Shown here one piece after another: positions 2,610 through 47,983 of a stretch of 64,000 nucleotides of DNA. The stretch spans positions 1 through 64,000 of the forward strand of contig NZ_KK088615.1 of the NCBI RefSeq assembly GCF_000600335.2, in the 5' to 3' direction. Origin of the DNA: Rubellimicrobium mesophilum DSM 19309. GTDB lineage: Bacteria; Pseudomonadota; Alphaproteobacteria; Rhodobacterales; Rhodobacteraceae. The position numbers were made by a program, and so were the translations under genes. The number at the start of each line of letters is the position of its first letter. The first letter of the stretch is position 1. The notes beneath the pieces are model-generated. The model was not told the DNA's origin, ran no database searches, and saw only the letters and a program-made list of their open reading frames with translations.

Positions 2610-3653
2610 TCAGGCCGCGGCCTCGAGATCCAGCAGCTCGCGCACGCGAGGAATCACCTTCTCGCCATAAAGGCGGAGGCAGGCCATCAGCTCCTCGTGC
2701 GGCTGGGTGCCAGTCGCATATTTCAGGTCGAACCGCTGGATGCCGAGTCCTTGGACGGTGCGCACGATCTTGCGGGCCACCGTCTCGGGAGAGCCCACGT
2801 AGAGCGCACCCTGCTCGACCTCCGCGAGGAAGCGCTCTTTGGTCACCGGGGGCCAGCCCCGCTCGCGACCGATGCGGCCGAACATCGTCTGGTAGTGGGG
2901 CCAGAGCGCCTCGCGCGCGGCTTCGTCCGTCTCGGCCACGAAGCCCGGTGAGTGGACGCCGATCGGGCGGGGCGCGCGGTCGAGCTGCTGGCAGGCGCGG
3001 TGATAGAGCTCCACGAAGGGTTTGAACCGCAAGGGATCGCCGCCGATGATCGCCAGCATGAGCTGAAGGTCGTGGCGCACGATACGGACGACGGACTCCG
3101 GGCTGCCGCCTACCCCCACCCAGGTCGTCAGCCCCTCGGGTCCGAGCCGTGGATAGACGGTCGCGTTCTGGAGCGGCGTGCGGGTCTCGCCCTGCCACGT
3201 CACCTTCTCCTCGCGCAGGAGGCGGACGAAGAGGTCCAGCCGCTCCTCGAAGAGGAGGTCGTATTCCTGAAGGTCGAAGCCGAAGAGAGGGTAGCTTTCG
3301 GTGAAGGACCCGCGCCCCAGGATCGCTTCGGCCCGGCCGTTCGACACGGCGTTCAGGGTCGAGAAGCGTTCGAACACCCGCACCGGGTCATCGGTCGAGA
3401 GCACGGTGACGGCGGTGCCGAGATGAATGCGGGAGGTGCGCCCAGCGATGGCGGCCAGCACGATCTCGGGCGAGGAGATGGCGAAGTCCGGGCGGTGGTG
3501 CTCGCCCAGTCCGATGAAGTCGATGCCGACCGAATCGGCCAGCACCGCCTCCTCGACCACATCGCGGAGGACCTGATCCATGGGCTTTGGCTTGCCATCC
3601 GCCCCGAGGGTGACGTCGCCGAACGTATCGAGGCCGAGGGAAAGGGCGGTCAT
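2610..3653 (-). CDS. LLM-class flavin-dependent oxidoreductase (bacterial luciferase-like)
   Basis: A 347-residue TIM-barrel flavoprotein of the luciferase-like monooxygenase family, using FMN (or F420 in some members). Family landmarks are GLGEHHRPDF, then HLGTAVTVLSTDDPVRV and GRAEAILGRGSF, and a C-terminal segment VGSPETVARKI that closes the barrel. The substrate is unknown; relatives act on alkanesulfonates, aldehydes or aromatic compounds. I use the ATG at 3653 (MTALSLGLD), since the extra 25 residues upstream are low quality. It stands alone and is convergent with the Dabb gene. The 188 bases upstream to the GH3 remnant show no other feature. Confidence 0.85.
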   Translation of the reverse strand: MTALSLGLDTFGDVTLGADGKPKPMDQVLRDVVEEAVLADSVGIDFIGLGEHHRPDFAISSPEIVLAAIAGRTSRIHLGTAVTVLSTDDPVRVFERFSTLNAVSNGRAEAILGRGSFTESYPLFGFDLQEYDLLFEERLDLFVRLLREEKVTWQGETRTPLQNATVYPRLGPEGLTTWVGVGGSPESVVRIVRHDLQLMLAIIGGDPLRFKPFVELYHRACQQLDRAPRPIGVHSPGFVAETDEAAREALWPHYQTMFGRIGRERGWPPVTKERFLAEVEQGALYVGSPETVARKIVRTVQGLGIQRFDLKYATGTQPHEELMACLRLYGEKVIPRVRELLDLEAAA

Positions 3654-27588: not shown

Positions 27589-28173
27589 CTAGCCCCCCCT
27601 GTCGTTGCCGTTCGCGGCCTCCAGCTCGTCGAGGACGGCCTCCGGGGCCACGTCCTGCTGGACCTCGGCCAGGTCCGCGTCCGCTTCGGTGCGGACCTCC
27701 AGCCGGTCGGCGATGGCGGCGACGAGGGTCGCGAGCTTGGTGATCTCGTGCTCCGCCAGGAGGCTGATCTGCAGGTCGAGGTCGGCGCGCTTGTCGGCGC
27801 TGGCGGCCATGCGGTTCTGGCTGATGAGCACGAAGGTCGAAAGGAAGATGGCCTCGACGGAGGCCCACATGGCGAGCACCACGAACGACTTGTCCCACCG
27901 CGGCACGCCGGGGATCCAGCCGAGGTTCGCCACGATCCAGAAGCCGAAGAAGGCGAGGTGGATGTACACGAAGAGCATCGAGCCCGTGAAGCGGGTGATC
28001 GCCTCGGCCACCTTCTCCTGGACCGTCGCCTCGGCCTCCTCGCGGCGCTTGCGGTCGGTGAGCGACTGGATGTTGCGCTCGAGGACCGAGCTCAGGCCCG
28101 AGGCGCTGGGCGGGGGCCAGGTCGGGCTGGCCGGGCGACCCGGGATGGGCGTGTCCTTCGCGGTGGCGGTCAT
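27589..28173 (-). CDS. DUF1003 membrane protein
   Basis: A 194-residue protein of the DUF1003 family. After a Pro-rich N-terminus come a helical region (SSVLERNIQSLTDRKRREEA), two membrane segments (FVYIHLAFFGFWIVANLG and VVLAMWASVEAIFLSTFVLI) and the family hallmark ISQNRMAASADKRADLDLQI, then a cytoplasmic coiled-coil tail. Family members are inner-membrane proteins of unknown function, sometimes linked to metal or stress genes. The ATG at 28173 (MTATAKD) is used; an upstream in-frame ATG at 28215 has less support. It is divergent from the ZIP-type transporter, 200 bases away. Confidence 0.85.
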   Translation of the reverse strand: MTATAKDTPIPGRPASPTWPPPSASGLSSVLERNIQSLTDRKRREEAEATVQEKVAEAITRFTGSMLFVYIHLAFFGFWIVANLGWIPGVPRWDKSFVVLAMWASVEAIFLSTFVLISQNRMAASADKRADLDLQISLLAEHEITKLATLVAAIADRLEVRTEADADLAEVQQDVAPEAVLDELEAANGNDRGG

Positions 28174-28373
28174 CCGTGGTGTCCTGACAAGGCCGGTGGA
28201 GAGGTGGTCCGGCACCCTTCAACTGCGCCCTTCCATCCAGTGTTCCCGGATTCTTCCCGCTCCTGCCCGGGAACAAGGGCGTGGCACTGCCGTTGAAAAA
28301 CCGACGCCAAGTCGTTCAGGAGCTTCCCATGTCCCATGCCGCCCCTCCCCGGCGCCGCGACGGCTGAGGGGCC

Positions 28374-29141
28374 GTGGCGGTCTGGGTGCAGGCGGGCCTT
28401 CGGGGCCTTCTGGGCGGCTCGGCCCTCGTGATCGGGGCGGCGCTGGCCTACATCGCGAACCTGCCCCGCCGGGTGACGGCCAGCATCATGGCCTTCGGCT
28501 GCGGCGTGCTGATCTCGGCGGTGGCCTACGACCTGATCCTCGAAGGCTTCGAGCTGGCCAGCTTCCGGCCCATCCTGATCGGGACGGTGGTGGGCTCGCT
28601 CGCCTATACCGGCGCGAACTGGCTGGTGAGCCAGGGCGCCGTGACCGACAAGGCGCGGCACCGCAAGCGGTCGGGCGAGCAGCAGACGGATGCGGGCGAC
28701 GGTGGCGGCCTCGCCATCGCCGTGGGCTCGCTGCTCGACGGCATCCCGGAATCGGTGGTGCTGGGCGTGGGCCTGCTGAGCGGTGGCGGCGTGAGCCTCG
28801 CGGTGCTGTCGGCGATCTTCCTGTCGAACCTGCCCGAGGGGCTGTCGAGCGCGGTGGGGATGCGCAAGGCGGGGCGGAGCGCGCTCTACGTCTTCGGGCT
28901 CTGGATCGGCATCGCGGTCGCCTCCGGGCTCGCCTCGGCGGCCGGGGCGGCGCTGATGGGCGGGGCCTCGCCGGACCTCCTCGCGATGGTGAGCGCGCTG
29001 GCGGCGGGGGCGCTGCTGACGATGATCGCCGACACGATGGTCCCCGAGGCGGTGGAGGGGGAAGGCGGGCTCGCCGGGCTCTTCGTCGTGCTGGGGCTGC
29101 TCACGGCCTTCGCGCTGTCCAAGGTGCTCGGGGGAGGGTGA
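28374..29141 (+). CDS. ZIP-family metal transporter-like membrane protein
   Basis: A 255-residue integral membrane protein. Two motifs mark the ZIP fold: LLDGIPESVVLGVGLL in the fourth helix, with the Asp, Pro and Glu of the metal site, and LSNLPEGLSSAVG in the fifth. A hydrophilic His-poor loop (RHRKRSGEQQTDAGDG) stands in the place of the His-rich cytosolic loop of zinc transporters, so the metal and direction are uncertain. The start is GTG at 28374 (MAVWVQAG). It is followed after 11 bases by a second membrane protein, so an operon is likely. Confidence 0.8.
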   Translation: MAVWVQAGLRGLLGGSALVIGAALAYIANLPRRVTASIMAFGCGVLISAVAYDLILEGFELASFRPILIGTVVGSLAYTGANWLVSQGAVTDKARHRKRSGEQQTDAGDGGGLAIAVGSLLDGIPESVVLGVGLLSGGGVSLAVLSAIFLSNLPEGLSSAVGMRKAGRSALYVFGLWIGIAVASGLASAAGAALMGGASPDLLAMVSALAAGALLTMIADTMVPEAVEGEGGLAGLFVVLGLLTAFALSKVLGGG

Positions 29142-30200: not shown

Positions 30201-30962
30201 TCAGTCGAGCCCCTCGTCCGGGATGTTGAGGAGCGTCCCGCAGGCCTTGCAGTGGACCGCGTCGGGATCGTGCCGGAGGAGCCCGCAGGTGGGGCAGCGG
30301 AAGCGCACCTTGTGGGGCCGGAACAGCACCTGCGCGAGGCGCAGGAACAGCGTGACGCCGAAGATCATGATGAGGACGGTGAGCATCCGCCCCGAGGTCC
30401 CGGGGAGGGTGATGTCGCCGAAGCCCGTCGTCGTCAGCGCCGTCACGGTGAAGTAGAGCGCGTCGGCGTAGTTGCCGATGTCCGGGTTCCGCCAGTGCTG
30501 GGTCTCGTAGACGACGGCTGTCATCACGAAGATGAAGACGAGGAGGTTGGCGATCGCCATGACCGTCTCCTCGTTGCGGGTGATCGGGCCCTGGCGGTCG
30601 CGGAAGTCGTTCAGCATCGTGTAGGTGCGCAGGACCCGCAGCGTCCGCAGCACGCGCAGGAAGCCCCCCGCCTCGCCGGTGACCGGGGCGACCAGCGAGG
30701 CGATGGCGACGAGGTCGGCCCAGGTGCTCGGCCGCAGGAATTCGCGCCCGCGGGCGCGGCTGGCGGCGATGCGCGCGACGAACTCGAGGCCGATGAGGAT
30801 ACCGAGGACCACGTCGATGTGCTCGACCAGCGGTGCGCGCGGGGCGAAGGAGGTCGCCACGATGAAGGCCAGCGTGACGAGGTCGAAGATCAGGAGGGCC
30901 CGGCGGAAGCGGTGCGCCCGCTCGGATCGGCCTTCATAGAGTTCGCGGAGCGTGGCCAGCAT
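30201..30962 (-). CDS. Voltage-gated-type potassium channel with C-terminal zinc ribbon
   Basis: A 253-residue inner-membrane channel subunit. Six membrane segments are visible: an S4-like Arg ladder FLRVLRTLRVLRTY (101-114), a pore helix and the selectivity filter TTTGFGD (177-183; the classic filter is TVGYGD, the GFGD form is common in bacterial homologues), then the last helix. After it, residues 221-245 form a zinc ribbon with Cys223, Cys226, Cys238 and Cys241 (CPTC and CKAC), which is unusual for such channels and might sense metal or redox state. Channels of this kind form tetramers and conduct K+ out or in along its gradient. It stands 12 bases after the gene at 30975. Confidence 0.88.
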   Translation of the reverse strand: MLATLRELYEGRSERAHRFRRALLIFDLVTLAFIVATSFAPRAPLVEHIDVVLGILIGLEFVARIAASRARGREFLRPSTWADLVAIASLVAPVTGEAGGFLRVLRTLRVLRTYTMLNDFRDRQGPITRNEETVMAIANLLVFIFVMTAVVYETQHWRNPDIGNYADALYFTVTALTTTGFGDITLPGTSGRMLTVLIMIFGVTLFLRLAQVLFRPHKVRFRCPTCGLLRHDPDAVHCKACGTLLNIPDEGLD

Positions 30963-30974
30963 GGACGGGGCGGC

Positions 30975-32062
30975 TCAGGTCCCCGTCGCCGCGAGGTCCT
31001 GCGGACGGAGCGCCCGGGCCAGCTCGCGCGCCCGGGCGAGGCCGGTATGGCGGGCGAGGACCCGCGTCCGGGCCGCCCGACCCAGCGCGAGCGCCTGGCC
31101 TTCGGGCAGGGCGAGGGCGCGCAGCACGTCCTCGGTGCCGTGGGCGACGACGAGGGAATCCTCGGGCAGTAGGTCCGAGAGGCCTCGCCAGGGGTCCGAG
31201 ACGATGGGCGTGCCGCAGGCGGCGGCCTCGAAGAGTCGGACCGAGGGCGACCAGCCCATCCGGCGCATCGCGGCGCGGGTCACGTTCAGCGTGAAGCGTT
31301 GCGCGTTGTAGAAGCCCGCGTGGCCGGCGGGGGAAGATGGTCGATCCGCTCGACGTTCGGGGGCCAGTCGATGGTGTCGGGATACATGGGGCCGGCGACG
31401 ACGAACCCGAGGTCCGGGCGCCGCCGCGCGGGCTCGAGGAGCAGCGCCTCGAGCGTGGGCTGGCGGTCGTCGCTGTAGGTGCCGAGATAGCCGAGGTCCC
31501 AGCGCTTCGCGGCCGCGGGATCGGACTCGTAGGCCGTGGGGTCCACCGAGCAGTAGAGCGCCTCGGCGCGCCTCACGCCGCGCTCCCGTTCGAGGTGGTC
31601 GAGGACCTCGCCACCGGAGAAGGAGAGATAGATGTCGAAGAGGGGAAGCTGGCGGGCGGCCACGTAGTCCTCGCGCCCGGCGTCGAGGGCGGCGAGGGTG
31701 ACCGGCGTGTCGATGTCGTAGAAGCAGAGCTGCCGGGGGCGCATGGCGGCCAGGCGGTCGATGAGCTCGATTCCGTCGGGGACATAGGATCCGACGATGA
31801 CGGCGTCCGCCGCACGCAGCCTGGCGCGGTGCGCCGCCAGCATCCCGCCGAGGTCGTCGTAGAGGTCGAACTCGCAGAAGTCGGGCTCGGGCAGGTCGCG
31901 GTTCGGCCCGGAATACCAGGGCACGTCGCGTTCGAGGAAGAGGACCCGGTGGCCCTCCTCGCGGAGCCCCTTGAGGAGCGCGCGGAACGTCGTCGCGTGG
32001 CCGTTGCCCCAGGAGGAGGAGAGCGAGAGCCCCAGGATGACGATGTCGAGGGGCGGCGTCAC
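30975..32062 (-). CDS. CgeB-like glycosyltransferase, third tandem copy (frameshifted in this sequence)
   Basis: About 362 residues when one base is added to the G run at 31329-31333 (read as C on the coding strand). The first frame gives MTPPLDIVILGLSLSSSWG to HLPP; the other continues GHAGFYNAQRFTLNVTRAAM and the GT domain hallmark GWSPSVRLFEAAACGTPIVSD to the end. This C-terminal block (SVRLFEAAACGT) is the family's nucleotide-sugar site. Relatives are the CgeB/GT1 type (Glyco_trans_1_2) of surface-glycan clusters. It overlaps the preceding gene (ATGA) and is the last gene of a six-gene operon. The donor and acceptor are unknown. Confidence 0.75.
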
Positions 32063-33150
32063 TCGGCGGCCTCCCGGCGGGCCTGCGCCTGGAACAGCGC
32101 GTCGGCCTGCGCGGCGCGCTGGTCGTAGGTGTGGTGAGCGAGGACGCGCTTCAGGGCGGCTTGGCCGATCCGCTCGGCCCGCTGCGGCGTGACGGTGCGG
32201 ACGAGCTCGGCCACGTCCTGCCCGTCGCGGGCGACGAGCACCTCCTCGTCGGGCTGGAGGAACAGCTCGATCCCCTCCCAGGCGTCGGTGACGAGGCAGG
32301 CGCCGGCGCCGGCGGCCTCGAAGACGCGGGTGGCGGGGGAGAAGCCGTTCGACGCCATGCTGTCGCGGGCGACGTTCAGCACCATGCGCGGCGTGCAGTT
32401 GAGCGCGTTGTGATCGGCGGTGGGGACGTGTCCGATGGCCCGGACGTTCGGGGGAAGGTTCGAGCCGGGCCAGCCGTTGCCGCCGAGGAGGAAGCTCCGG
32501 TCGGGAAGGCTTGCGGCGGGTTGCAGGAAGAACTCATGCACGCGCGCCTCGCGGTCGGGGAGGCGGTTGCCCAGGAACGCAAGGTCGCAGGCGAAGCGCG
32601 GGTCCGGCGGGACGGGGTGGTGGGTGTCCGGGTCGAGCGCGTTGTAGACGGGCACGCATTCGCGGGCGCCGAAGCCCTGGTAGGCAGCGACCACCGGGTC
32701 GCCGCCCCCATAGGTCAGGACGAGGTCGAGCGAGGGCAGCATCCGGCGGAGCGCATGGTCGGGGGAGTCGCGCATCTCGGCCAGGGTGGCGGGGGCGTCC
32801 ACGTCCCAGAAGACCTTGAGGGCATCGGGGCGGGCGGCGGCCATCACCTCCTGCAGGATGAGGTCGTCCTCGAAGCCGACGCCCGATGCCTTGACGACGA
32901 TGTCGTGGCGGGCGGCCTCGGCGGCGACCTTCCTCAGCGCGTCGACGGTGCCGTCGTAGACCACGACCTCGGCCCACGCGGGCGGGTCGATGTCGCGGTT
33001 CTTCTGCCGGTCGTAGACGTCGGGCTCGTAGAAGGTCGTGCGGTAGCCGCGCTTCGCCAGCGCCCGGATCATCCCGCGATAGTAGGTCGCCGCCCCGTTC
33101 CAGTAGGCCGAGAGGAGCGACGAGCCGTAGAAGGCGATGGTCTTGGTCAT
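32059..33150 (-). CDS. CgeB-like glycosyltransferase, second tandem copy
   Basis: A 363-residue GT-B-type glycosyltransferase. The N-terminal Rossmann domain begins MTKTIAFYGSSLLSAYWNGA with a glycine-rich loop; the C-terminal domain has NVARDSMASNGFSPATRVFE followed by AAGAGACLVTDAWEG, the same nucleotide-sugar-binding block as in its two neighbours. Paired domains and the sequence VFWDVDAPATLAEMRD identify a homologue of the CgeB-like genes on both sides. It acts in the cytosol on a sugar nucleotide, most likely adding one residue to a surface glycan. The ATG overlaps the preceding stop, and its own stop overlaps the next start. Confidence 0.85.
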   Translation of the reverse strand: MTKTIAFYGSSLLSAYWNGAATYYRGMIRALAKRGYRTTFYEPDVYDRQKNRDIDPPAWAEVVVYDGTVDALRKVAAEAARHDIVVKASGVGFEDDLILQEVMAAARPDALKVFWDVDAPATLAEMRDSPDHALRRMLPSLDLVLTYGGGDPVVAAYQGFGARECVPVYNALDPDTHHPVPPDPRFACDLAFLGNRLPDREARVHEFFLQPAASLPDRSFLLGGNGWPGSNLPPNVRAIGHVPTADHNALNCTPRMVLNVARDSMASNGFSPATRVFEAAGAGACLVTDAWEGIELFLQPDEEVLVARDGQDVAELVRTVTPQRAERIGQAALKRVLAHHTYDQRAAQADALFQAQARREAAE

Positions 33151-34250
33151 GCGGTCTTCCTTGCGGGGGCGCGCAGATCGGAGAGGATGCCCAGCAGCTC
33201 CTCGACCCGGTGGCGGCAGGTGTGGCGGGCCTGGATGGTCTCGAGGCCCCCGGCGGCCTGCTCGGCGCGCAGCGCGGGGTCGTTGACGAGCGCGCGCAGG
33301 TGGCTCCGCATCTCCGCGCCGTCCTTGGCCCAGAGGAAGTCGCCGGGGCGGAACAGGCCCTCGGCGTCGTCCCAGGGGGCGGAGACGAGGGGGATGCCGC
33401 AGGCCAGCGCCTCGAAGGGGCGGATGGTCGGGATGCCGGGAAGCTGCTCGACGTAGGGGCGCCGGGGGACATGGACGGTCACGCGGCGGCGGGCGAAGGC
33501 GCGGGGGACCTCGGCATTCGGGATCCAGCCGCCATAGGCGATGTCGGCCTCGGAGAGGGTGCGGAGCGCCGTCTCGGGGTAGCGGACGCCACGCACGCTG
33601 GTCCGAAGGTGGAGGTCGCGGGCGGGCCCTATCAGGAACTCGTAGAGCTCGGCCGTGCGCTCGTCGTCGCCCCAGTTGCCGATCCAGATCAGGTCGCCCT
33701 CCTCGGGCTCGCCGGGCATCGGATGGAAGAGCGCGTCGTCGGCGGCCTCGTGCCAGGTGAAGACCTGGCGACCCCAGCCGGCCTTGAGGTAGCGCTCGCG
33801 GAGCGCCTCGCCGAAGGCGAGGATGCCGTCGTAGCCGGAGAGGTCCATCGCCTCGATGTCGCCCTCGGCCGAGACGGCGCGGTGGTGGGTGTCGTGGAAG
33901 AGGAGCGTGAAGCGGCCCCCGCGTTTCCGCGCCGCACCGATGCGGGCGACCAGCGCGGGCTCGGTCCATTCGTGGACGACCACCACGTCGGCGGCGTCGA
34001 GCACGGCCTCGTGGTCGAACTCCTCGGGGTAGATGCGCGTGGCAAGCTTCGGGAAGTCGCGGTGGAAGGCGGCGACGGCCTCCTCCCCCCGGTCGGCGAC
34101 GAGGTTCTCGCGGCTCCAGGCGCCTGCGGGCTCCAGCGCCAGCGCCTCGTGGCCGCGCCGGAGGAGGTCGCGCATGATGCCGCGCAGGAAATGGGCGTTG
34201 CCGTGGTTCCAGTCCGAGATCAGGGAATGGGTATAGAAGAGGAAGCGCAT
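33147..34250 (-). CDS. CgeB-like glycosyltransferase, first tandem copy
   Basis: A 367-residue glycosyltransferase of the same fold as the two following genes. It starts MRFLFYTHSLISDWNHGNAH with the same N-terminal strand-loop. Further on, IRPFEALACGIPLVSAPWDD is the counterpart of the RVFEAAGAGACLVTDAWEG block. Compared with its neighbours it has diverged most. The three genes in a row with four-base overlaps look like an old triplication with separate specialisation. Its ATG lies one base downstream of the preceding stop codon. The role in a multi-sugar glycan is inferred from context. Confidence 0.83.
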   Translation of the reverse strand: MRFLFYTHSLISDWNHGNAHFLRGIMRDLLRRGHEALALEPAGAWSRENLVADRGEEAVAAFHRDFPKLATRIYPEEFDHEAVLDAADVVVVHEWTEPALVARIGAARKRGGRFTLLFHDTHHRAVSAEGDIEAMDLSGYDGILAFGEALRERYLKAGWGRQVFTWHEAADDALFHPMPGEPEEGDLIWIGNWGDDERTAELYEFLIGPARDLHLRTSVRGVRYPETALRTLSEADIAYGGWIPNAEVPRAFARRRVTVHVPRRPYVEQLPGIPTIRPFEALACGIPLVSAPWDDAEGLFRPGDFLWAKDGAEMRSHLRALVNDPALRAEQAAGGLETIQARHTCRHRVEELLGILSDLRAPARKTA

Positions 34251-34251
34251 C

Positions 34252-35337
34252 TCACCTCGCGGGGACGGGGACGAGCCCTTCGTAGAGCGACAGCATGGCC
34301 TGGGCCTGCGCCTCGGCCGTAAAGCGGCGGGAGCGCAGGCGCGCGGCCTCGCCCAGGCGCCGGCGCTGGTGCGGGTCGGAGGCGAGGCGGTCCAGCGCGA
34401 CGGCCAGCTCCTCCGGGTCGCCGGGCGGGACGAACCAGGCGACGTTGTCCCAGAGCTCGCGGAACGTGGGGATGTCGGAGAGGACCAGCGGCAGGCCCAT
34501 CCGACCTGCCTCGGCCACCGCGAGGCCGAAGGGCTCGTAGAGCGAGGGCGAGACGAAGATGCCCGCCTCCCGCATGAGAGCGATGGCCTCCGCGTGGGGC
34601 AGCTCGCCGTCGAGCCGGGCGTTCTCGGCGGCGAAGGCCGCTCCGTTGGGGCCGTGGGTCGGGCCGAGGAGGCGGACCGGCCAGTTCGTCAGATCGGCCG
34701 CCGCGTCGAGGACCCGACCGCCCTTGCCCTCGTCCCACCAGCGACCGGAGGCGATGACGATGGGCTTCTCGGGCAGGCGCGTGGGCTCGGGCGTGGTGAC
34801 GGCGTTGAGGACGACGCGGAGCCGGGGCAGGGGGCCGTAGCAGGCCCGGAGCGCCTCGCCGTGCGACTGGGACGGGGCGACGATCAGGTCGGCGCGGGCG
34901 AGGCCGCGGGCGTTCAGCTCGCCCTGCCACTCCCAGCCGGGAGGCAGGCCCGAGTTCCGGACGGCACGGAACCAGGTGGTCACGCAGGAATGCGAGACGA
35001 CGAGAAGCGGCCTGTCGGTCTCCAGCCCCGCCGCCTGGGTGGGCATGTTGACCTGGAGGAGGTCCACGCCGTGCCGCCGCGCGGCATCGTCGATCAAGCC
35101 GGGCACGCGGGCCAGGGCGGATTCGTCCTGCACCAGCCAGTCGAGCGGCGCGTCCGCCCAGTCGAGCTTGCCCAGCACCTCGGCCTCGGCGCGCTGCGCC
35201 GGCGAGGGTGGAGGGCCGAAGCCCAAAAAGACGGTCTCCACGCCGGCCGGGCGCAGGGCCCCCGCGAGGTCCATCGCGTAGCGCCATACCCCCCCGACCG
35301 AGTCGAGGGTCATCAGGAGACTGAGTCTCTCGGTCAT
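34252..35337 (-). CDS. Glycosyltransferase family 4
   Basis: A 361-residue GT-B retaining glycosyltransferase. The N-terminal domain begins LMTLDSVGGVWRYAMDLAGAL, the Gly-Gly-x-x-x-x loop of GT4 enzymes. The C-terminal domain has IASGRWWDEGKGGRVLDAAA and the donor-binding E-x7-E motif in SPSLYEPFGLAVAEAGRMGLP. It transfers a sugar from a nucleotide donor to a growing glycan in the cytosol. It is third in the operon, overlapping the epimerase stop (ATGA), and sits next to three CgeB-like transferases; together four transferases imply a glycan of at least four residues. Confidence 0.9.
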   Translation of the reverse strand: MTERLSLLMTLDSVGGVWRYAMDLAGALRPAGVETVFLGFGPPPSPAQRAEAEVLGKLDWADAPLDWLVQDESALARVPGLIDDAARRHGVDLLQVNMPTQAAGLETDRPLLVVSHSCVTTWFRAVRNSGLPPGWEWQGELNARGLARADLIVAPSQSHGEALRACYGPLPRLRVVLNAVTTPEPTRLPEKPIVIASGRWWDEGKGGRVLDAAADLTNWPVRLLGPTHGPNGAAFAAENARLDGELPHAEAIALMREAGIFVSPSLYEPFGLAVAEAGRMGLPLVLSDIPTFRELWDNVAWFVPPGDPEELAVALDRLASDPHQRRRLGEAARLRSRRFTAEAQAQAMLSLYEGLVPVPAR

Positions 35338-36392
35338 GCGCGGATGCGCTCGGGCTCGGGCGCCGCGAGGCCGGGGCGGTTGGCCCTCAGCCAGTCCGCG
35401 AGGCCCTGGAGCCCCTCGCGCCAGCCAGTGCGCGCCTGCCATCCGGTCTCGGCCTGCAGCCGCGAGGTGTCGGCCACGAACCAGAGCTGGTCGCCCTGCC
35501 GCCAGTCGCCGAAGGAGACGGGCACGTGCCGCTCCGCGACCCGCTCGATCTCGCGGAGGAGGCCAAGGAGGCTCACGGCGTTCCGGGGACCGCCGCCCAG
35601 GTTGAAGGCGCGGCCCTTGAGGCGGCTGATGTCCTTGAGGACCGTCCGGTAGGCCGCCACCGCGTCCGAGACGTGGAGGATGTCGCGCACCTGCCTGCCG
35701 TCGCCGTAGAGGGTGATGCCTTCGCCCGAGAGCGCCCGGATCAGGAAGTGGGCCACCCAGCCCTGGTCCTCGGTCCCGAATTGGCGGGGGCCGTAGATGC
35801 AGCTCATGCGGAGCACCGCCGAAGGGATCCCATAGGATCTAGCGTAATCGAGCACGTACTGGTCCGCGACCCCTTTCGAGCAACCGTAGGGCGAATGGAA
35901 GTCGAGCGGCCGATCCTCGCCGATGCCCTTGGCGCGGAGCGTCTCGTCGGCGGGGAGGTGGCGGTCGGCGGCCTCGGCCATGGGCAGGTCCGAAAGGCAG
36001 CCGTAGACCTTGTTGGTGGAGGCGAAGAGGACGGGGATGGGACGGCCCGTCGCCCGCACGGCCTCCAGCACGTTCAGCGTGCCGCGCGCGTTGACCTCGA
36101 AGTCCGCGAGAGGATCGGCGAGGCTCGTCGTCACGGCGGTCTGGGCGGCGAGGTGCACGACGGCCCCTGCCTCGCGCATGGCGTCGCGCAGGGCGTCCTC
36201 GTCGCGCAGGTCGGCGGTCACCGGGTGGACGCGGTTGCCGTGCCGGGCCTTGAGCCAGTCGAGGTTCTGCTCGACGCCGGGGCGGGAGAGGTTGTCGAGG
36301 ACGAAGACCTCGTGGCCGTCCTGAAGGAAGCTGTCGGCCAGGTTCGAGCCGATGAAGCCCGAGCCCCCGGTGACGAGGACCGGCCCGCTCAC
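35334..36392 (-). CDS. NAD-dependent nucleotide-sugar epimerase/dehydratase
   Basis: A 352-residue extended SDR. It begins SGPVLVTGGSGFIGSNLADS with the NAD motif TGGSGFIG, has the active-site pair Tyr-x-x-x-Lys in YGCSKGVADQY preceded by FASTNKVYG, and carries LHVSDAVAAY and FNLGGGPRNAVSL of the C-terminal sugar-nucleotide domain. This pattern is near CDP-paratose/CDP-tyvelose 2-epimerase and related enzymes (the SxNKVYG form), so a 2- or 4-epimerisation is plausible; I do not assign the substrate. The start is GTG at 36392, overlapping the preceding stop (GTGA). The N-terminal extension to 36467 is not coding-like. Confidence 0.85.
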   Translation of the reverse strand: MSGPVLVTGGSGFIGSNLADSFLQDGHEVFVLDNLSRPGVEQNLDWLKARHGNRVHPVTADLRDEDALRDAMREAGAVVHLAAQTAVTTSLADPLADFEVNARGTLNVLEAVRATGRPIPVLFASTNKVYGCLSDLPMAEAADRHLPADETLRAKGIGEDRPLDFHSPYGCSKGVADQYVLDYARSYGIPSAVLRMSCIYGPRQFGTEDQGWVAHFLIRALSGEGITLYGDGRQVRDILHVSDAVAAYRTVLKDISRLKGRAFNLGGGPRNAVSLLGLLREIERVAERHVPVSFGDWRQGDQLWFVADTSRLQAETGWQARTGWREGLQGLADWLRANRPGLAAPEPERIRA

Positions 36393-37495
36393 GACACGAG
36401 CCCCCGCTCCTGGAGCTGGCGCTGCATCTCGGCGCCGCGGTCCACCACGGCCTCGCCCCGGACCCATTCGACGAACTCGTCCAGGGAGTCCTCGAGGCGA
36501 TGCTTCGGCTCGAAGCCCAGCAGGTCGCGCGCCTTGGCGATGTCCGAGAAGCAGTTGCGGATGTCGCCCGAGCGGGACTTGCCCAGGATCTCGGGCTGGA
36601 GATGGGGCAGGTTCATGGCGCCGGCCAGGAGGCGTGCGACGCCGGAGATGGTGTAGGCCTGACCGGACCCGACGTTGAACAGCTCGCCCTTGGCCTCGGG
36701 CCTCTCGTAGGCGAGGCGGAAGGCGTGGGCCACGTCGCGGACGTGGACGAAGTCGCGCCGCTGCTCGCCGTCCTCGAAGATCGTCGGCCGCTCGCCCGAG
36801 GCGAGGCGCGAGGCGAAGTTGGCCAGGACCCCGGTGTAGGGATTGGAGAGCGCCTGCCCGGCCCCGAAGACGTTGAAGAGCCGCAGCGCCACGGCCTCCA
36901 CGTCGTAGGCCTCGCCGAAGATCAGGACCTCGCGTTCCTGCGCGTATTTAGTCAGCGCGTAGATCGAGGCGAGGTCCACGCGCTTGTTCTCGTCGGTCGG
37001 CCGGGGCGTCAGGGGCTCGCCGTCCGGGCCGGTGGGGTTCCAGCGCCCGGCGCGGACGTCCTCGGGGCGGCGGCGGATCGTCTCCAGCAGGCGGCCGTCG
37101 GGGGTGGCGTAATAGCCCTCGCCATAGACGCTCATGGAGGAGGCGACGACGATGCGCTGCACGGGGTGGTCGAGCATCGCCTCGAGCAGCACCGCCGTGC
37201 CGAGGTCGTTGGCGCCCACGTAGCGGGCGATCTCGTACATCGACTGCCCGACGCCCACCTCGGCGGCGAGGTGGATCACGCCGTCGCAGCCCTGGATCGC
37301 CTGCCGCATCCGGTCGGCGTCGCGGACGTCGCCGCGCACGACCTCGGCGCCCTCGGGGAGGTGAACTTGGGAGACGCCGTGCACCTGGTCGATCATGGCA
37401 TCGTAGAGACGGACCTCGTGGCCGTGCGCCAGCATCTCCTCGGCGACGTGCCGCCCGATGAAGCCGCAGCCGCCGGTAATGAGTACTTTCGTCAT
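36389..37495 (-). CDS. NAD-dependent nucleotide-sugar epimerase
   Basis: A 368-residue extended SDR, first gene of the glycan operon. The NAD motif is ITGGCGFIGRHVAEE, the catalytic Ser is in ASSMSVYGEG, and the Tyr-x-x-x-Lys is in YALTKYAQE. FRDF-type substrate loops include RRDFVHVRDVAHA and FNVGSGQAY. A long insertion (about 140-170: RRPEDVRAGRWNPTGPDG) distinguishes it from plain GalE and is known in some UDP-glucuronate or dTDP-sugar epimerases; the substrate is unassigned. Upstream lie about 290 bases shared with the divergent MDR dehydrogenase gene and presumably the operon promoter. Confidence 0.85.
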   Translation of the reverse strand: MTKVLITGGCGFIGRHVAEEMLAHGHEVRLYDAMIDQVHGVSQVHLPEGAEVVRGDVRDADRMRQAIQGCDGVIHLAAEVGVGQSMYEIARYVGANDLGTAVLLEAMLDHPVQRIVVASSMSVYGEGYYATPDGRLLETIRRRPEDVRAGRWNPTGPDGEPLTPRPTDENKRVDLASIYALTKYAQEREVLIFGEAYDVEAVALRLFNVFGAGQALSNPYTGVLANFASRLASGERPTIFEDGEQRRDFVHVRDVAHAFRLAYERPEAKGELFNVGSGQAYTISGVARLLAGAMNLPHLQPEILGKSRSGDIRNCFSDIAKARDLLGFEPKHRLEDSLDEFVEWVRGEAVVDRGAEMQRQLQERGLVS

Positions 37496-37787
37496 GGGGA
37501 CCCCTGCCGTGACGCCCGTTCGCGCCCGTGGTGCCCAAACTCCGGTGAGCTACTAAGGTTCCCGAAGACGTGACGCAGCGCGCCGGACGGGACCCGGGCG
37601 CATTCCGCCCTATCACTCATGGGAGAGCCGGCGCCGACCAGCTCGCTCAGGACGAAGCGGGGCCGTGCGGCCCCGGAACGCAATCCCTGCCCGGCGGTTT
37701 CCCTTGCTCGAGCCGCGCGGGCCGCCGAAAGGAAGTCGCCATGCGCCGATGCCTGCCCTCCTTCCCCAGCGTCCCGGAGGCGTCCCG

Positions 37788-38757
37788 ATGAGCGCCGGGA
37801 TGCGCGCGGCGCGCATCGTCGGGCCGGGGCAGGTCGAGGTGGTGGACCTTGCGTTGCCCGAGCCCGGGCCCGGCGAGCTCCGTGTCCGGCTGGAGGGCTG
37901 CGGCGTCTGTGCCTCGAACCTCGAGCCCTGGGCGGGACCCGACTGGATGCAGTTCCCGACCGAGCCAGGGGGCCTCGGACACGAGGGCTGGGGCGTGGTG
38001 GACGCGGTGGGGGATGGCGTGCAGGGGTTGGCGCCCGGGGACCGGGTCGCGGTCCTGAACCAGCACGGCTACGCCACCCACGACGTCGTCCGGGCCGAGC
38101 AGGCCGTGCGGCTCCCTCCCGGGCTCGCCGGTGTTCCCTTTCCCGGCGAGGCGTTCGGCTGCGCGGTGAACATCGCCCGCCGGAGCCGGATCGAGCCCGG
38201 GCAGACGGTGGCGGTGATCGGCATCGGCTTCATCGGGGCCGCCGTCACCCGGCTTGCCGCGCAGGCCGGGGCCACCGTCATCGCCATCTCGCGGCGGGAC
38301 AGCTCGCTCGCGCTGGCGCGCGAGATGGGGGCGGCGCACACGATCCCGATGCAGGACCACTGGGGCATCATCGAGGAGGTCCGGCGCGTGACCGACGGGC
38401 GGATGTGCGACGTGGTGGTCGAGGCAGTGGGCAAGGAGTGGCCGCTCAACCTCGCCGGCGACATCGTCGCCGAGGGCGGGCGGCTGGTGATCGCGGGCTA
38501 CCACCAGGACGGGTCCCGGACGCTCAACATCGGCGGCTGGAACTGGCGCGGTCTCGACATCGTCAACGCGCACGAGCGCGACCCGCAGGTCAACCTGCGC
38601 GGCCTGCGCGAGGCCGTCGAGGCCGCCGCGAGCGGACGGATCGCACCCCCGGCCGCTGGTCACCCACCGCTTTCCCCTGGAGCGGCTCGACGAGGCGCTG
38701 AACGCCACGCGGGACAAGCTGGACGGCTTCGTGAAGGCCTGGATCGCCTTCGATTGA
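37788..38757 (+). CDS. Zinc-type MDR dehydrogenase (frameshifted in this sequence)
   Basis: About 322 residues after deleting one C from the run at 38646-38650. The frame to about 38645 encodes the catalytic part, with ELRVRLEGCGVCASNLEPW and the zinc His/Glu in GLGHEGWGVV, and the Rossmann motif VIGIGFIGAAV. The neighbouring frame supplies the expected end RPLVTHRFPLERLDEALNAT and VKAWIAFD. The four-Cys structural zinc loop is missing, as in the smaller MDR branches. GGAG lies 8 bases before the ATG. It is transcribed divergently from the glycan operon and toward the UDP-xylose-synthase gene, so a role in glycan precursor metabolism is inferred only from position. Confidence 0.72.
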
Positions 38758-38863
38758 GGGCCGAGAGCCCGAGGGCGGAACGGCTCGGTCAAGGGAGGAT
38801 CGTCGCGCGGGCCGCGTCGGCCAAGCTCCGCCCGTCCGGCCCGCCGCCGTTTCCCCTCGCTCC

Positions 38864-38877: not shown

Positions 38878-38882
38878 TCAGG

Positions 38883-38900
38883 GAACTTAGATCTAGGTTC
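38883..38900. promoter_or_regulatory. Near-perfect 18-base palindrome upstream of the UDP-xylose-synthase-like gene
   Basis: GAACTTAGATCTAGGTTC, with one mismatched pair (T/G) around a perfect TAGATCTA core. It begins 6 bases after the first palindrome and ends 104 bases before the start codon at 39005. It is low in GC for this genome, which fits a regulated promoter region. Confidence 0.45.
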
Positions 38901-39004
38901 TTCGTTCAAGCTTCCGTGCGCGGCCCGGGAGGCCCGTGGCGGAGGACCGCCGCGAGCGGCGGGCCGCATGACGGCGCGATCCGCGCCCCCCAATCGAGGT
39001 GCTC

Positions 39005-40012
<1,008 letters not shown>

Positions 40013-45310: not shown

Positions 45311-45638
45311 GTCGTGTTCCCGCCTCGGGCGCCGGCCCGACCTCGAAGCTGCAGGCGCCACCGTTCCAGCAGCAAACACGCGGGACGGGAGGTCTGTTCC
45401 AGGGCGCGGGATCCCGCCCGTACTCGCGTCAAGCGCGATCCCGGTTCCGCCGGATTCGCGTGTCGGGCGAGTCCGATCGGCGGTCTTCCGCCACCTCCCG
45501 GAACCTTGGTGGGGTGACGACGTTTAGGGACCGCGCTGATTTGCAAGGCGCATCGGACCAGGCCCCACAGATTTCGCCGCTTTGGCCAGCCCTTCCGGGT
45601 CGGGTCCCAACCGTGGACAGTTTGGATCAGGAGACACG
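45311..45638. other. Divergent intergenic region, no feature recognised
   Basis: 328 bases between the Mfd-like gene and the Glf fusion gene. It must hold both promoters, but I find no clear hexamers, palindromes or small gene in it. A ribosome site CAGGAGACACG ends at the Glf start. Confidence 0.4.
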
Positions 45639-47983
45639 ATGCCGGACGCGACCCCTATTCCCTTGAACGACCTCTCGGCCGGCCCCTTGATCTGCTTCTC
45701 TCACCTGCGCTGGGACTTCGTCCTGCAGCGGCCGCAGCACCTGATGGGTCGCTTCGCCCGGACCCGCCCGGTCTACGTCTGGGAGGAGCCGGTCCCCACG
45801 ACCTATGACAAGCCCTTCTACGAGGTCCATCCCGTCAAGGGCACGTCGGTCCGGGCGATCCGCCCGGCCATCCCCAACGCCGCGCCGCCCGGGGAGCGCG
45901 AGTCCATCGTCAAGCGGCTCTTTGACGACTTCCGCCAGCTCCTCGGCGCGCAGAAGCCGGTCCTGTGGTTCTACACGCCGATGATGTGGCCGCTGGCCGA
46001 GGGCGTCGAGGCCGAGGCCATCGTCTACGACTGCATGGACGAGCTCTCGCAGTTCAAGTTCGCCCCGCCCGAGCTCAAGGCGCGCGAGCAGGCGCTTCTC
46101 GAGGCCGCCGACGCCGTGTTCACCGGCGGCTGGAGCATCTACGAGGCCAAGAAGCTCCAGCACGACAACATCCACCCCTTCCCCTCCTCGGTGGACGGCC
46201 CGCACTTCGCGCAGGCCCGCAAGGGGATGCCGATGCCCGACGACATGGCGACGATCCCCGGCCCGCGCCTCGGCTTCTACGGCGTGATCGACGAGAGACT
46301 CGACCTCGCGCTCCTCGACCACCTCGCGCAGGCGCGGCCCGACTGGCACATCGTCATGGTCGGCCCCGTGGTGAAGATCAGCGAGGCCGACCTGCCCAAG
46401 CGGCCGAACATCCACTACCTCGGCGGCAAGGGCTACGCCGAGCTTCCCGCCTACCTCTCCGGCTGGGACGTGGCGCTGATGCCCTTCGCCATCAACGAGG
46501 CCACGCGCTTCATCTCGCCCACCAAGACGCCCGAATACCTCTCGGCCGGGCGTCCCGTGGTCTCCACGCCGATCCGCGACGTGGTGCGCCACTACGGCAA
46601 CCTCGACGGCGTCAAGATCGCCGACACGCCCGAGGCCTTCGTCCAAGCCTGCGACGAGGCGCTCGCCCTGTCCAAGGCCCCGGAGATCTGGCTCCCCGAG
46701 GTGGACAAGGTGCTCGCCGACATGAGCTGGGATGCCACCTTCCGCCGGATGGACCGCCTCGTGACCGAGGCCGCCCAGATGCGCCGCGCCCGCCGCGCGC
46801 CCGACCGCTTCGCCGCGCCGGGGATCAAGCGGGGCGGGGCCAAGCCCTACGACGTGGTGATCGCCGGCGCGGGCTTCGCGGGCAGCGTGATGGCCGAGCG
46901 GCTCGCCGAGGGCTCGGGCAAGCGCGTCCTCGTCATCGACAAGCGGCCCCACGTCGCCGGGAACGCCTACGACCACCACGACAAGGCGGGCATCCTGATC
47001 CACCAGTACGGCCCCACCATATCTTCCATACCAACAGCGATCAGGTCGTGGACTACCTGTCGCGCTTCACCGCCTGGCGCCCCTACGAGCACCGCGTGCT
47101 CGCGCAGGTGGATGGCAAGCTCCTGCCCATGCCGATCAACCGCACCACGCTGAACGGCCTCTACGACCTGAACCTCCAGACCGACGAGGATGCGGCCGCC
47201 TTCCTCGCCGCGCAGGCCGAGCCGGTGGAGAAGATCGAGACCAGCCGCGACGTCGTCGTGAACGCGGTGGGCACCCACCTCTACGAGACCTTCTTCCAGG
47301 GCTACACCCGCAAGCAGTGGGGCCTCGACCCGTCCGAGCTGGACAAGTCGGTCACGTCGCGCGTGCCCACGCGCACGAACCTCGACGACCGCTACTTCCT
47401 CGACAGCTTCCAGGCCATGCCGCGCGACGGCTTCACCCGGATGTTCGAGAAGATGCTCGACCACCCCAACATCGACCTCGCGCTGGGCGCCGACTACCAC
47501 GACCTCAAGCCCTCGGAGCTCGCGCCGCTGACGGTCTACACCGGCCCCATCGACGCCTTCTTCGGCCACCGCTTCGGGCCGCTCCCCTACCGGAGCCTCC
47601 ACTTCCGGCACGAGATCCTCGACCAGCGGCGCTTCCAGGAGGTGGCGGTGGTGAACTACCCAGACGAGGCGGTGCCCTACACCCGGATCACCGAATACAA
47701 GCACCTCACCGGCCAGGTCGCGCCTCGGACCTCGATCACCTACGAGTATCCCTCGGCGGAGGGCGACCCCTACTATCCGATCCCCCGCCCGGAGAACCAG
47801 GCGCTCTACAAGAAGTACGAGGCCCTCGCCAACCAGCGGGACGACGTGATCTTCCTCGGGCGGCTAGGCACCTACCGCTACTACAACATGGACCAGGTGG
47901 TCGGGCAGGCGCTCGCCACCTACCGCCGGCTCGCCGAGCGGATGGCCATCCAGACCGGCGCCGCCTCCACCGCGGCGGAGTGA
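45639..47983 (+). CDS. glf: Glycosyltransferase / UDP-galactopyranose mutase fusion (frameshifted in this sequence)
   Basis: About 781 residues after adding one C to the run at 47012-47015. Residues 1-385 are a GT-B transferase (opening ICFSHLRWDFVLQRPQHL; donor domain INEATRFISPTKTPEYLSAG). From about 405, KPYDVVIAGAGFAGSVMAER begins UDP-galactopyranose mutase with FAD motif GAGFAGS and ...IDKRPHVAGNAYD. The frame changes just before HIFHTNSDQVVDYL, and the mutase continues with FFQGYTRKQWG, FLDSFQAMPRDGF and RLGTYRYYNMDQV. The mutase makes UDP-galactofuranose; a fused transferase could use it at once. A CAGGAG site precedes the ATG. Such fusions occur in other proteobacteria. Confidence 0.82.

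Follow-up and report, generated by a model that had tools for sequence, protein, structure and literature searches.

In the 64,000 nucleotides (nt) of Rubellimicrobium mesophilum DSM 19309 analysed here (contig NZ_KK088615.1, positions 1 to 64,000; henceforth the window), six genes for putative sugar-nucleotide epimerases and glycosyltransferases form an operon on the minus strand, which runs from position 37495 to 30975 in the order epi1-epi2-GT4-cgeB1-cgeB2-cgeB3. Judging from its sequence and from its relatives, we see about an even chance that this operon is one unit of a two-locus pathway, controlled by the sigma factor EcfG, to a soluble cytoplasmic hetero-oligosaccharide or glycoside. 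Its Pfam content comprises two SDR nucleotide-sugar epimerase-like proteins, one GT4 protein and, in tandem, three proteins of the family PF13524 (Glyco_trans_1_2), which we take to be the CgeB-like family. The first gene, epi1 (36389..37495), encodes a GalE-like SDR nucleotide-sugar epimerase (PF01370, 4.4e-52) and keeps its place in the order of relatives; it is followed by epi2 (35334..36392; GTG start) of the CDP-tyvelose 2-epimerase-like (C-2 epimerase) subfamily (PDB 9rl0, 2.6e-82; 1orr, 7.7e-78), by the GT4 glycosyltransferase gene (34252..35337; PF00534, PF13692, PF13439), and by the PF13524 glycosyltransferase genes cgeB1 (33147..34250; 2.9e-33), cgeB2 (32059..33150; 9.4e-42) and cgeB3 (30975..32062), the last delimited by its open reading frames (ORFs) and Pfam matches and with its frame broken at a point located to about 31253-31337. 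A preliminary description of this DNA had spoken of a six-gene glycan operon with overlaps of one to four bases throughout. The gene content, strand and tandem order stand, as do overlaps of 4 nt at four junctions, but the GT4/cgeB1 junction is a 1-nt gap, cgeB3 is not one reading frame, and a seventh gene is possible.

The synteny search across Alphaproteobacteria that the same description had proposed was run, and it found the core order on one strand in 74 of 80 named loci, these being the best 80 of at least 543. The six exceptions are three Roseomonas-type loci with the genes in two blocks, two loci with only cgeB2-cgeB3-UXS, and one with an extra epi2 in front. Recurrent partners among the 80 are the UDP-glucuronate decarboxylase gene (UXS; 72 loci), a methyltransferase (66), a dehydrogenase (56), an inositol-dehydrogenase-like gene (51), a permuted glycosidase (34), inositol-phosphate synthase (32), an alternative to the glycosidase called X (27), cgeB4 (13) and a radical SAM gene (9), all of these counts being lower bounds because the flanks end at 10 kb. 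Two partners are found in the window on the plus strand, namely a divergent zinc-type alcohol dehydrogenase gene (37749..38759; PF00107, PF08240; both ends approximate, frame broken near 38648) and the UXS gene (38999..40012; PDB 2b69, 1.7e-105), predicted to supply UDP-xylose. Both are members of the same conserved cluster, and the pathway exceeds the six genes. The claim that no known system has this gene order is correct only for named pathways, since many Alphaproteobacteria share the order and two partner genes have NCBI models. These are the NCBIfam hypothetical equivalogs TIGR04290 (meth_Rta_06860) and TIGR04295 (B12_rSAM_oligo), which match cluster genes of relatives with 365 bits (cut-off 300) and 711 bits (cut-off 400), respectively, but are single-protein models without a described function; the 'oligo' in the second name may stand for oligosaccharide. 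TIGR04295 was found in none of seven same-genus genomes searched. The literature searched, with most subscription journals outside its reach, holds no description of the cluster, and the idea of a product of an undescribed kind is borne out to that extent. A Sinorhizobium meliloti gene tag guessed from its position turned out to be an ABC transporter protein in PMC12542648.

The distribution of the cluster is patchy. Among 385 genomes of the class, epi1 was found in 18 and cgeB2 in 16 (both at E <= 1e-60); three of the epi1-positive genomes (G064, G102, G176) have no cgeB2 match and no other core genes nearby, and one genome (G173) has cgeB2 and no epi1 match. TIGR04290 (E <= 1e-30) likewise occurs in 16 of the 385, and the lists of cgeB2-positive and TIGR04290-positive genomes are identical. 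In a second sample of 398 genomes from the phylum, TIGR04290 was present in 14, all of the same class; the 11 of these that were new all carry cgeB2, which was found in none of 20 TIGR04290-negative genomes, all of the window's own family and four of them already included in the 385-genome search. Relatives of cgeB2 also occur in 148 plasmid records, and pSymB of S. meliloti 1021, the one plasmid looked at, carries the cluster at about 242-258 kb, where polysaccharide pyruvyl transferase and F420 hydrogenase beta-like genes stand beside the pathway glycosidase (L142:96-2571). In the tree, the Microvirga sequences fall in with those of Roseomonas and Belnapia, and the Rubellimicrobium ones with those of Paracoccus; together with the patchy distribution, these groupings suggest that the cluster may have been horizontally transferred.

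The regulation of the operon can be predicted from the DNA in front of it. The EcfG consensus reported for Sphingomonas melonis Fr1 in PMC6599016 is GGAAC-N17-20-GTT, concentrated in the 100 bp next to the start. The window has such a site, GGAAC-N17-GTT, at 37538..37562 on the minus strand, ending 43 nt before epi1, and a motif search finds another at 37675..37699 on the plus strand, facing the dehydrogenase gene. Our search covered 100 loci and, in each, the 400 nt that precede epi1; an epi1 match was admitted if it was at least 48% identical and began close to the N-terminus. The set is partly redundant, with near relatives and at least one pair of duplicates (L039/L062). GGAAC-N17/18-GTT occurs in the sense orientation in 73 of the 100 and in the antisense orientation, facing the divergent genes, in 67. 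The spacing is narrowly defined, with a spacer of 17 giving 64 sense and 50 antisense hits, one of 18 giving 10 and 21, and any other from 8 to 29 giving 0-5. Sense sites most often start 61-70 nt before epi1 (35/82), a minority lying at about -170 or -220. By comparison, 83 letter-permuted motifs reached a mean of 1.4 per 100 loci and a best of 17, the latter with GGAAC retained. When the upstream DNA was grouped at 80% identity, the site was still present in 58 of 82 groups, and a looser grouping gave 18 of 36. In the 300 nt upstream of the genes inside the operon it is practically missing (epi2 0/96, GT4 0/93, cgeB1 1/98, cgeB2 0/99, cgeB3 0/98). In sequence, spacer length and position relative to the start, the sites agree with the consensus of PMC6599016, and control of the epi1 operon by EcfG is likely. 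Sites also precede other pathway genes across the loci, commonly the dehydrogenase (23/40) and INO1 (21/37), less so the phosphatase (7/39) and rarely UXS (3/51), so the window's own site 93 nt before the UXS gene (38882..38906, plus strand) is not general.

The second locus lies on another contig of the same genome (C36, locus L060) and contains cgeB4, a nucleotidyltransferase gene, a second GT4 gene, a GNAT-like gene, a histidine phosphatase gene, the TIGR04290 methyltransferase gene, a glycosidase-like gene and the inositol-phosphate synthase gene INO1. The series cgeB4-nucleotidyltransferase-GT4-phosphatase-methyltransferase-glycosidase-INO1 is also found in four other loci (L143-L146), a further one (L147) holding the last four genes only. 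In Microvirga and Mesorhizobium most second-locus genes adjoin the main cluster, and for this reason the two loci probably form one pathway, as is also indicated by the exact co-occurrence of cgeB2 and TIGR04290 described above; this genome itself combines the CgeB-like genes with the methyltransferase, its TIGR04290 match being the one on C36. The promoter pattern extends to this locus, with an EcfG-type site 71-73 nt before cgeB4 in all five same-genus loci and one 62-75 nt before the phosphatase gene in all six; in a further genome (G384), whose second locus is separate, INO1 is preceded by two sites, at distances of 48 and 142 nt. The same contig carries a second EcfG-like sigma gene (L148; C36:43000-43482), whose match to the query contains one in-frame stop.

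Considering the nature of the product, the preliminary description had proposed a surface glycan, which our data do not support. A surface polysaccharide (capsule, part of the lipopolysaccharide, or exopolysaccharide) with its export machinery encoded elsewhere would agree with the joint presence of epimerases, UXS and several glycosyltransferases, and with the polysaccharide pyruvyl transferase gene near the S. meliloti locus. We nevertheless consider it unlikely. Besides the cluster genes themselves, no more than two families are found in 10 or more of 81 loci, and neither is a flippase, polymerase or exporter, a negative that concerns the loci, export genes elsewhere in the genome not having been searched. 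Nor does a membrane-bound initiating transferase, as expected of a Wzx/Wzy, ABC-type or synthase-type cluster, reach that number of loci, and 18 of 19 pathway proteins, one representative of each, lack any transmembrane window, the dehydrogenase having a marginal one. The core order, moreover, is fixed in most loci, unlike that of typical surface-antigen clusters, which change fast. Because no exporter recurs and the enzymes look soluble, a cytoplasmic product is favoured.

A pathway to such a cytoplasmic product can be sketched as follows. The PhyR-NepR switch is well established, and this genome has adjacent genes for PhyR, NepR and an ECF sigma factor; stress signals would free EcfG via this switch, and EcfG would then transcribe the epi1 operon, the divergent dehydrogenase gene and both units of the second locus, as their promoter sites suggest. 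UXS would provide UDP-xylose, epi2 would invert C-2 of a nucleotide hexose, and epi1 and the second-locus nucleotidyltransferase would, by their families, supply other donors. Six GT-B-type transferases in this genus (two GT4 and four CgeB-like) may add sugars singly to a small acceptor, which is perhaps inositol or methyl-inositol made via the inositol-phosphate synthase, phosphatase and methyltransferase, and the glycosidase-like enzyme may trim or transfer. Given its regulation, the product would most likely protect against drying, osmotic or oxidative stress.

Some of the individual enzymes allow more specific predictions. UXS scores 353-356 bits against solved UXS enzymes and 143 against the next family, and its identity is clear by this sequence measure. 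The nearest solved structures to epi2 are those of CDP-tyvelose 2-epimerase (TyvE; 9rl0, 1orr), whose catalytic and CDP-binding residues we took from PMC7851689 and PMC13098431. The catalytic Thr, Tyr and Lys and the Thr-Asn-Lys segment that epi2 shares with TyvE are retained in 97-99 of 99 cluster proteins at each position. The CDP-binding set is only partly conserved: Trp207 and Phe211 are present in 99/99, but Trp210 is replaced by His in 98/99. Met85 is replaced by Val in 98/99, the remaining row being a gap. CDP-glucose dehydratase and paratose synthase were not recognised in the cluster, the rest of the genome not having been searched. Since Trp210 and Met85 are replaced and those two enzymes were not recognised beside it, the substrate of epi2 is probably different, and the protein is probably TyvE-like rather than TyvE, that is, a C-2 epimerase predicted to act with another nucleotide or sugar.

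The three CgeB-like copies are well diverged, as the preliminary description had it. Pairwise identities are 26.5% (cgeB1/cgeB2), 32.6% (cgeB2 and the N-part of cgeB3) and 26.6% (cgeB1 and the N-part of cgeB3), and both other copies match the short C-part of cgeB3 at 38-41% identity; PF13524 scores are 115.3, 142.8 and 70.3 bits against a curated cut-off of 25, the cgeB3 figure covering its 3' part only. The block they were said to share, RVFEAAGAGACLVTDAWEG, is present in cgeB2, while cgeB1 and cgeB3 each have a version of it that has diverged. We inferred a tree of 66 sequences (21 cgeB1, 21 cgeB2, 20 cgeB3 and four cgeB4) from 20 hand-chosen loci, the window and the second locus, leaving out the broken cgeB3 of the window; the tree program warns of long branches meeting between the groups. 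Each paralog occupies one side of a single branch, with support values of 100/100 (cgeB1), 100/99, 99/92 and 100/98. Because each forms its own clade, the CgeB-like genes are, by this tree, old paralogs that arose before the cluster spread; the recent event that the term 'triplicated' suggests is ruled out by the tree.

A structure model of cgeB2 (predicted local distance difference test score, pLDDT, 91.7) matches GT-B enzymes in the PDB, from E 2.5e-13, among them small-molecule enzymes such as MshA, BshA and GlgM, as well as PimB' and pterin glucosyltransferases. With MshA- and BshA-type transferases the model shares the GT-B fold, and an INO1 and a phosphatase gene are present in the second locus, but identity is only 9-15% over the listed matches to cgeB2. 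This likeness, and the match of the second-locus INO1 to the mycothiol INO1 model (451 bits, below the cut-off of 638), would fit the glycosylation of a protein or a low-molecular-weight cofactor or thiol rather than the making of a free oligosaccharide. We find this very improbable, as six transferases exceed the needs of such cofactors and no thiol-pathway genes, including a ligase or acetylase, were recognised in the cluster, to which this search was confined.

The glycosidase-like protein of the second locus has an unusual architecture. It comprises about 300 residues and displays, at residue 8, the sequence WNEPNN, presumably the strand-4 motif of clan GH-A glycosidases; the chain ends with the part expected first. 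In a BLAST comparison with X, a domain fused to epi2 in other clusters, its halves align in swapped order (E 1.6e-21 and 1.1e-11), and the doubled sequence gives one alignment of 321 columns that spans the junction (E 4e-33). In the structure model, eight strands follow one another as in a barrel (pLDDT 79.8, loops of low confidence). A profile of the protein matches PslG at E 9.7e-7 in its N-terminal part (residues 3-185 on PslG 132-320), the only Pfam match is a borderline one to Glyco_hydro_cc, and Foldseek returned generic barrels only, possibly because a sequential method meets a permuted chain. The 27 named loci with X and the 34 with the permuted form do not overlap, 19 having neither; one genome (G384) holds both, its X being 36% identical. 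The permuted TIM-barrel glycosidase (e.g. L060:16009-16932, plus strand; L052:7733-8668, minus strand) and X (e.g. L045:8234-9208, minus strand) hence look like circular permutants, alternative forms of one step.

Several observations weigh against the pathway we propose. The exact promoter site is absent before epi1 in 27 of the 100 loci, and own sites are scarce elsewhere at the genes cgeB4 (1/15), IolG (0/54), MT (1/41), GHx (0/40) and NTase (0/15), as would be expected only if those genes sit inside operons. NepR scores 21.0 bits, below the Pfam cut-off of 25.7. We could not connect the cluster with the published S. melonis Fr1 targets of EcfG: 13 motifs taken from Table 1 of that work, with up to four mismatches allowed, had no match in 11 Sphingomonas loci, and nothing in the accessible top-target table (among its entries #2499, a dehydrogenase, and #3506-3509, transferases) can be recognised as this cluster. 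Of 24 genomes (one of the 24, G001, lacks a cgeB1 match), 13 encode this kind of inositol-phosphate synthase; the others would have to import inositol if it were the acceptor throughout. The acceptor may also be a lipid, GT-B enzymes being able to sit on membranes without transmembrane stretches. The soluble transferases would then work at the membrane and build a stress-induced glycolipid on, for example, an inositol lipid or glycosyl-diacylglycerol, an idea consistent with the appearance of PimB' among the relatives of the cgeB2 model and with inositol-phosphate synthase in many genomes. We regard it as doubtful, since the flanks show no recurrent lipid synthase family and inositol-phosphate synthase is missing in 11 of the 24 genomes.

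A different objection comes from the frameshifts. In this genome cgeB3, the dehydrogenase gene and the second-locus nucleotidyltransferase gene are all frameshifted, and if these lesions were real, the pathway would be decaying and no longer functional in this strain. At 1088 nt, the length of cgeB3 is not a multiple of 3, and the gene falls into two ORFs, 31286-32062 and 30975-31283; same-genus relatives have both parts in register, and here the parts are still 62-81% identical to six same-genus loci. The window has three frameshift sites, at 38648 (dehydrogenase), 31253-31337 (cgeB3) and 28095-28191 (resting on a single protein), and the second locus another three (about 10352, 11192 and 16880 of L060), whereas five same-genus loci have 0, 0, 0, 0 and 1. 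Because the relatives are mostly free of such sites and this assembly (126 contigs, 91.6% complete) has several, sequencing indels or assembly error are probably the likelier cause, cgeB3 included. Decay, judged on these two loci, thus seems to us a slim prospect, and a programmed frameshift in cgeB3 is less likely than assembly error, as the relatives carry the gene in one frame.

The general stress response aids the survival of Alphaproteobacteria on leaves, in soil and during symbiosis, and to our knowledge many of its effectors have yet to be found. With distinctly less than even confidence, we would extend our interpretation to at least eight alphaproteobacterial families. In these, four to six soluble transferases may use UDP-xylose, a C-2-epimerised hexose and, in some of the bacteria, methylated inositol to assemble a shared oligosaccharide that stays inside the cell, is induced by general stress and acts as a novel compatible solute or protectant; its glycosidase would come in two permuted forms that stand in for each other between clusters. 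A conserved gene set under a predicted stress promoter in genera with much-used laboratory strains, for example Sinorhizobium, Methylobacterium and Sphingomonas, makes its function open to experiment, and the cluster also offers a distinct subfamily of C-2 sugar-nucleotide epimerases and a naturally permuted TIM-barrel glycosidase.

The surroundings of the operon deserve a brief comment. A K+-channel-like membrane protein gene, seen in this genus only (30201..30962, minus strand; PF00520, PF07885), starts 12 nt past cgeB3 and lies directly behind it in five of six same-genus loci (L036-L039 and L043, not L040); given this short gap and adjacency, it may be a seventh, last gene of the operon in this genome. 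By eye, the C-terminus of its product resembles a zinc ribbon. The window as a whole contains 13 EcfG-type sites between 15028 and 56654, compared with 1.61 expected, a number reached in none of 100 shuffles. They precede epi1, the dehydrogenase and UXS genes, a DUF1003 gene, a multi-transmembrane protein gene and a TuaH-like gene, among others; five of the 13 precede no gene of our hand-made list, and one more lies about 28 nt before an erythromycin-esterase-like start. With this many sites, several of them before genes unrelated to glycan, the window may be a stress-response island. The DUF1003 gene (27589..28215, minus strand; PF06210, 3.3e-27; site at 28221-28246) is a neighbour rather than a recognised member of the pathway; a family resembling its product by eye is present in 14 of 81 loci. 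The multi-transmembrane protein (28374-29141) has no Pfam match and an EcfG-type site in front, and the ORF at 45540-47153 joins a TuaH-like glycosyltransferase to a short UDP-galactopyranose mutase-like start, which may be a fusion or a frameshift.

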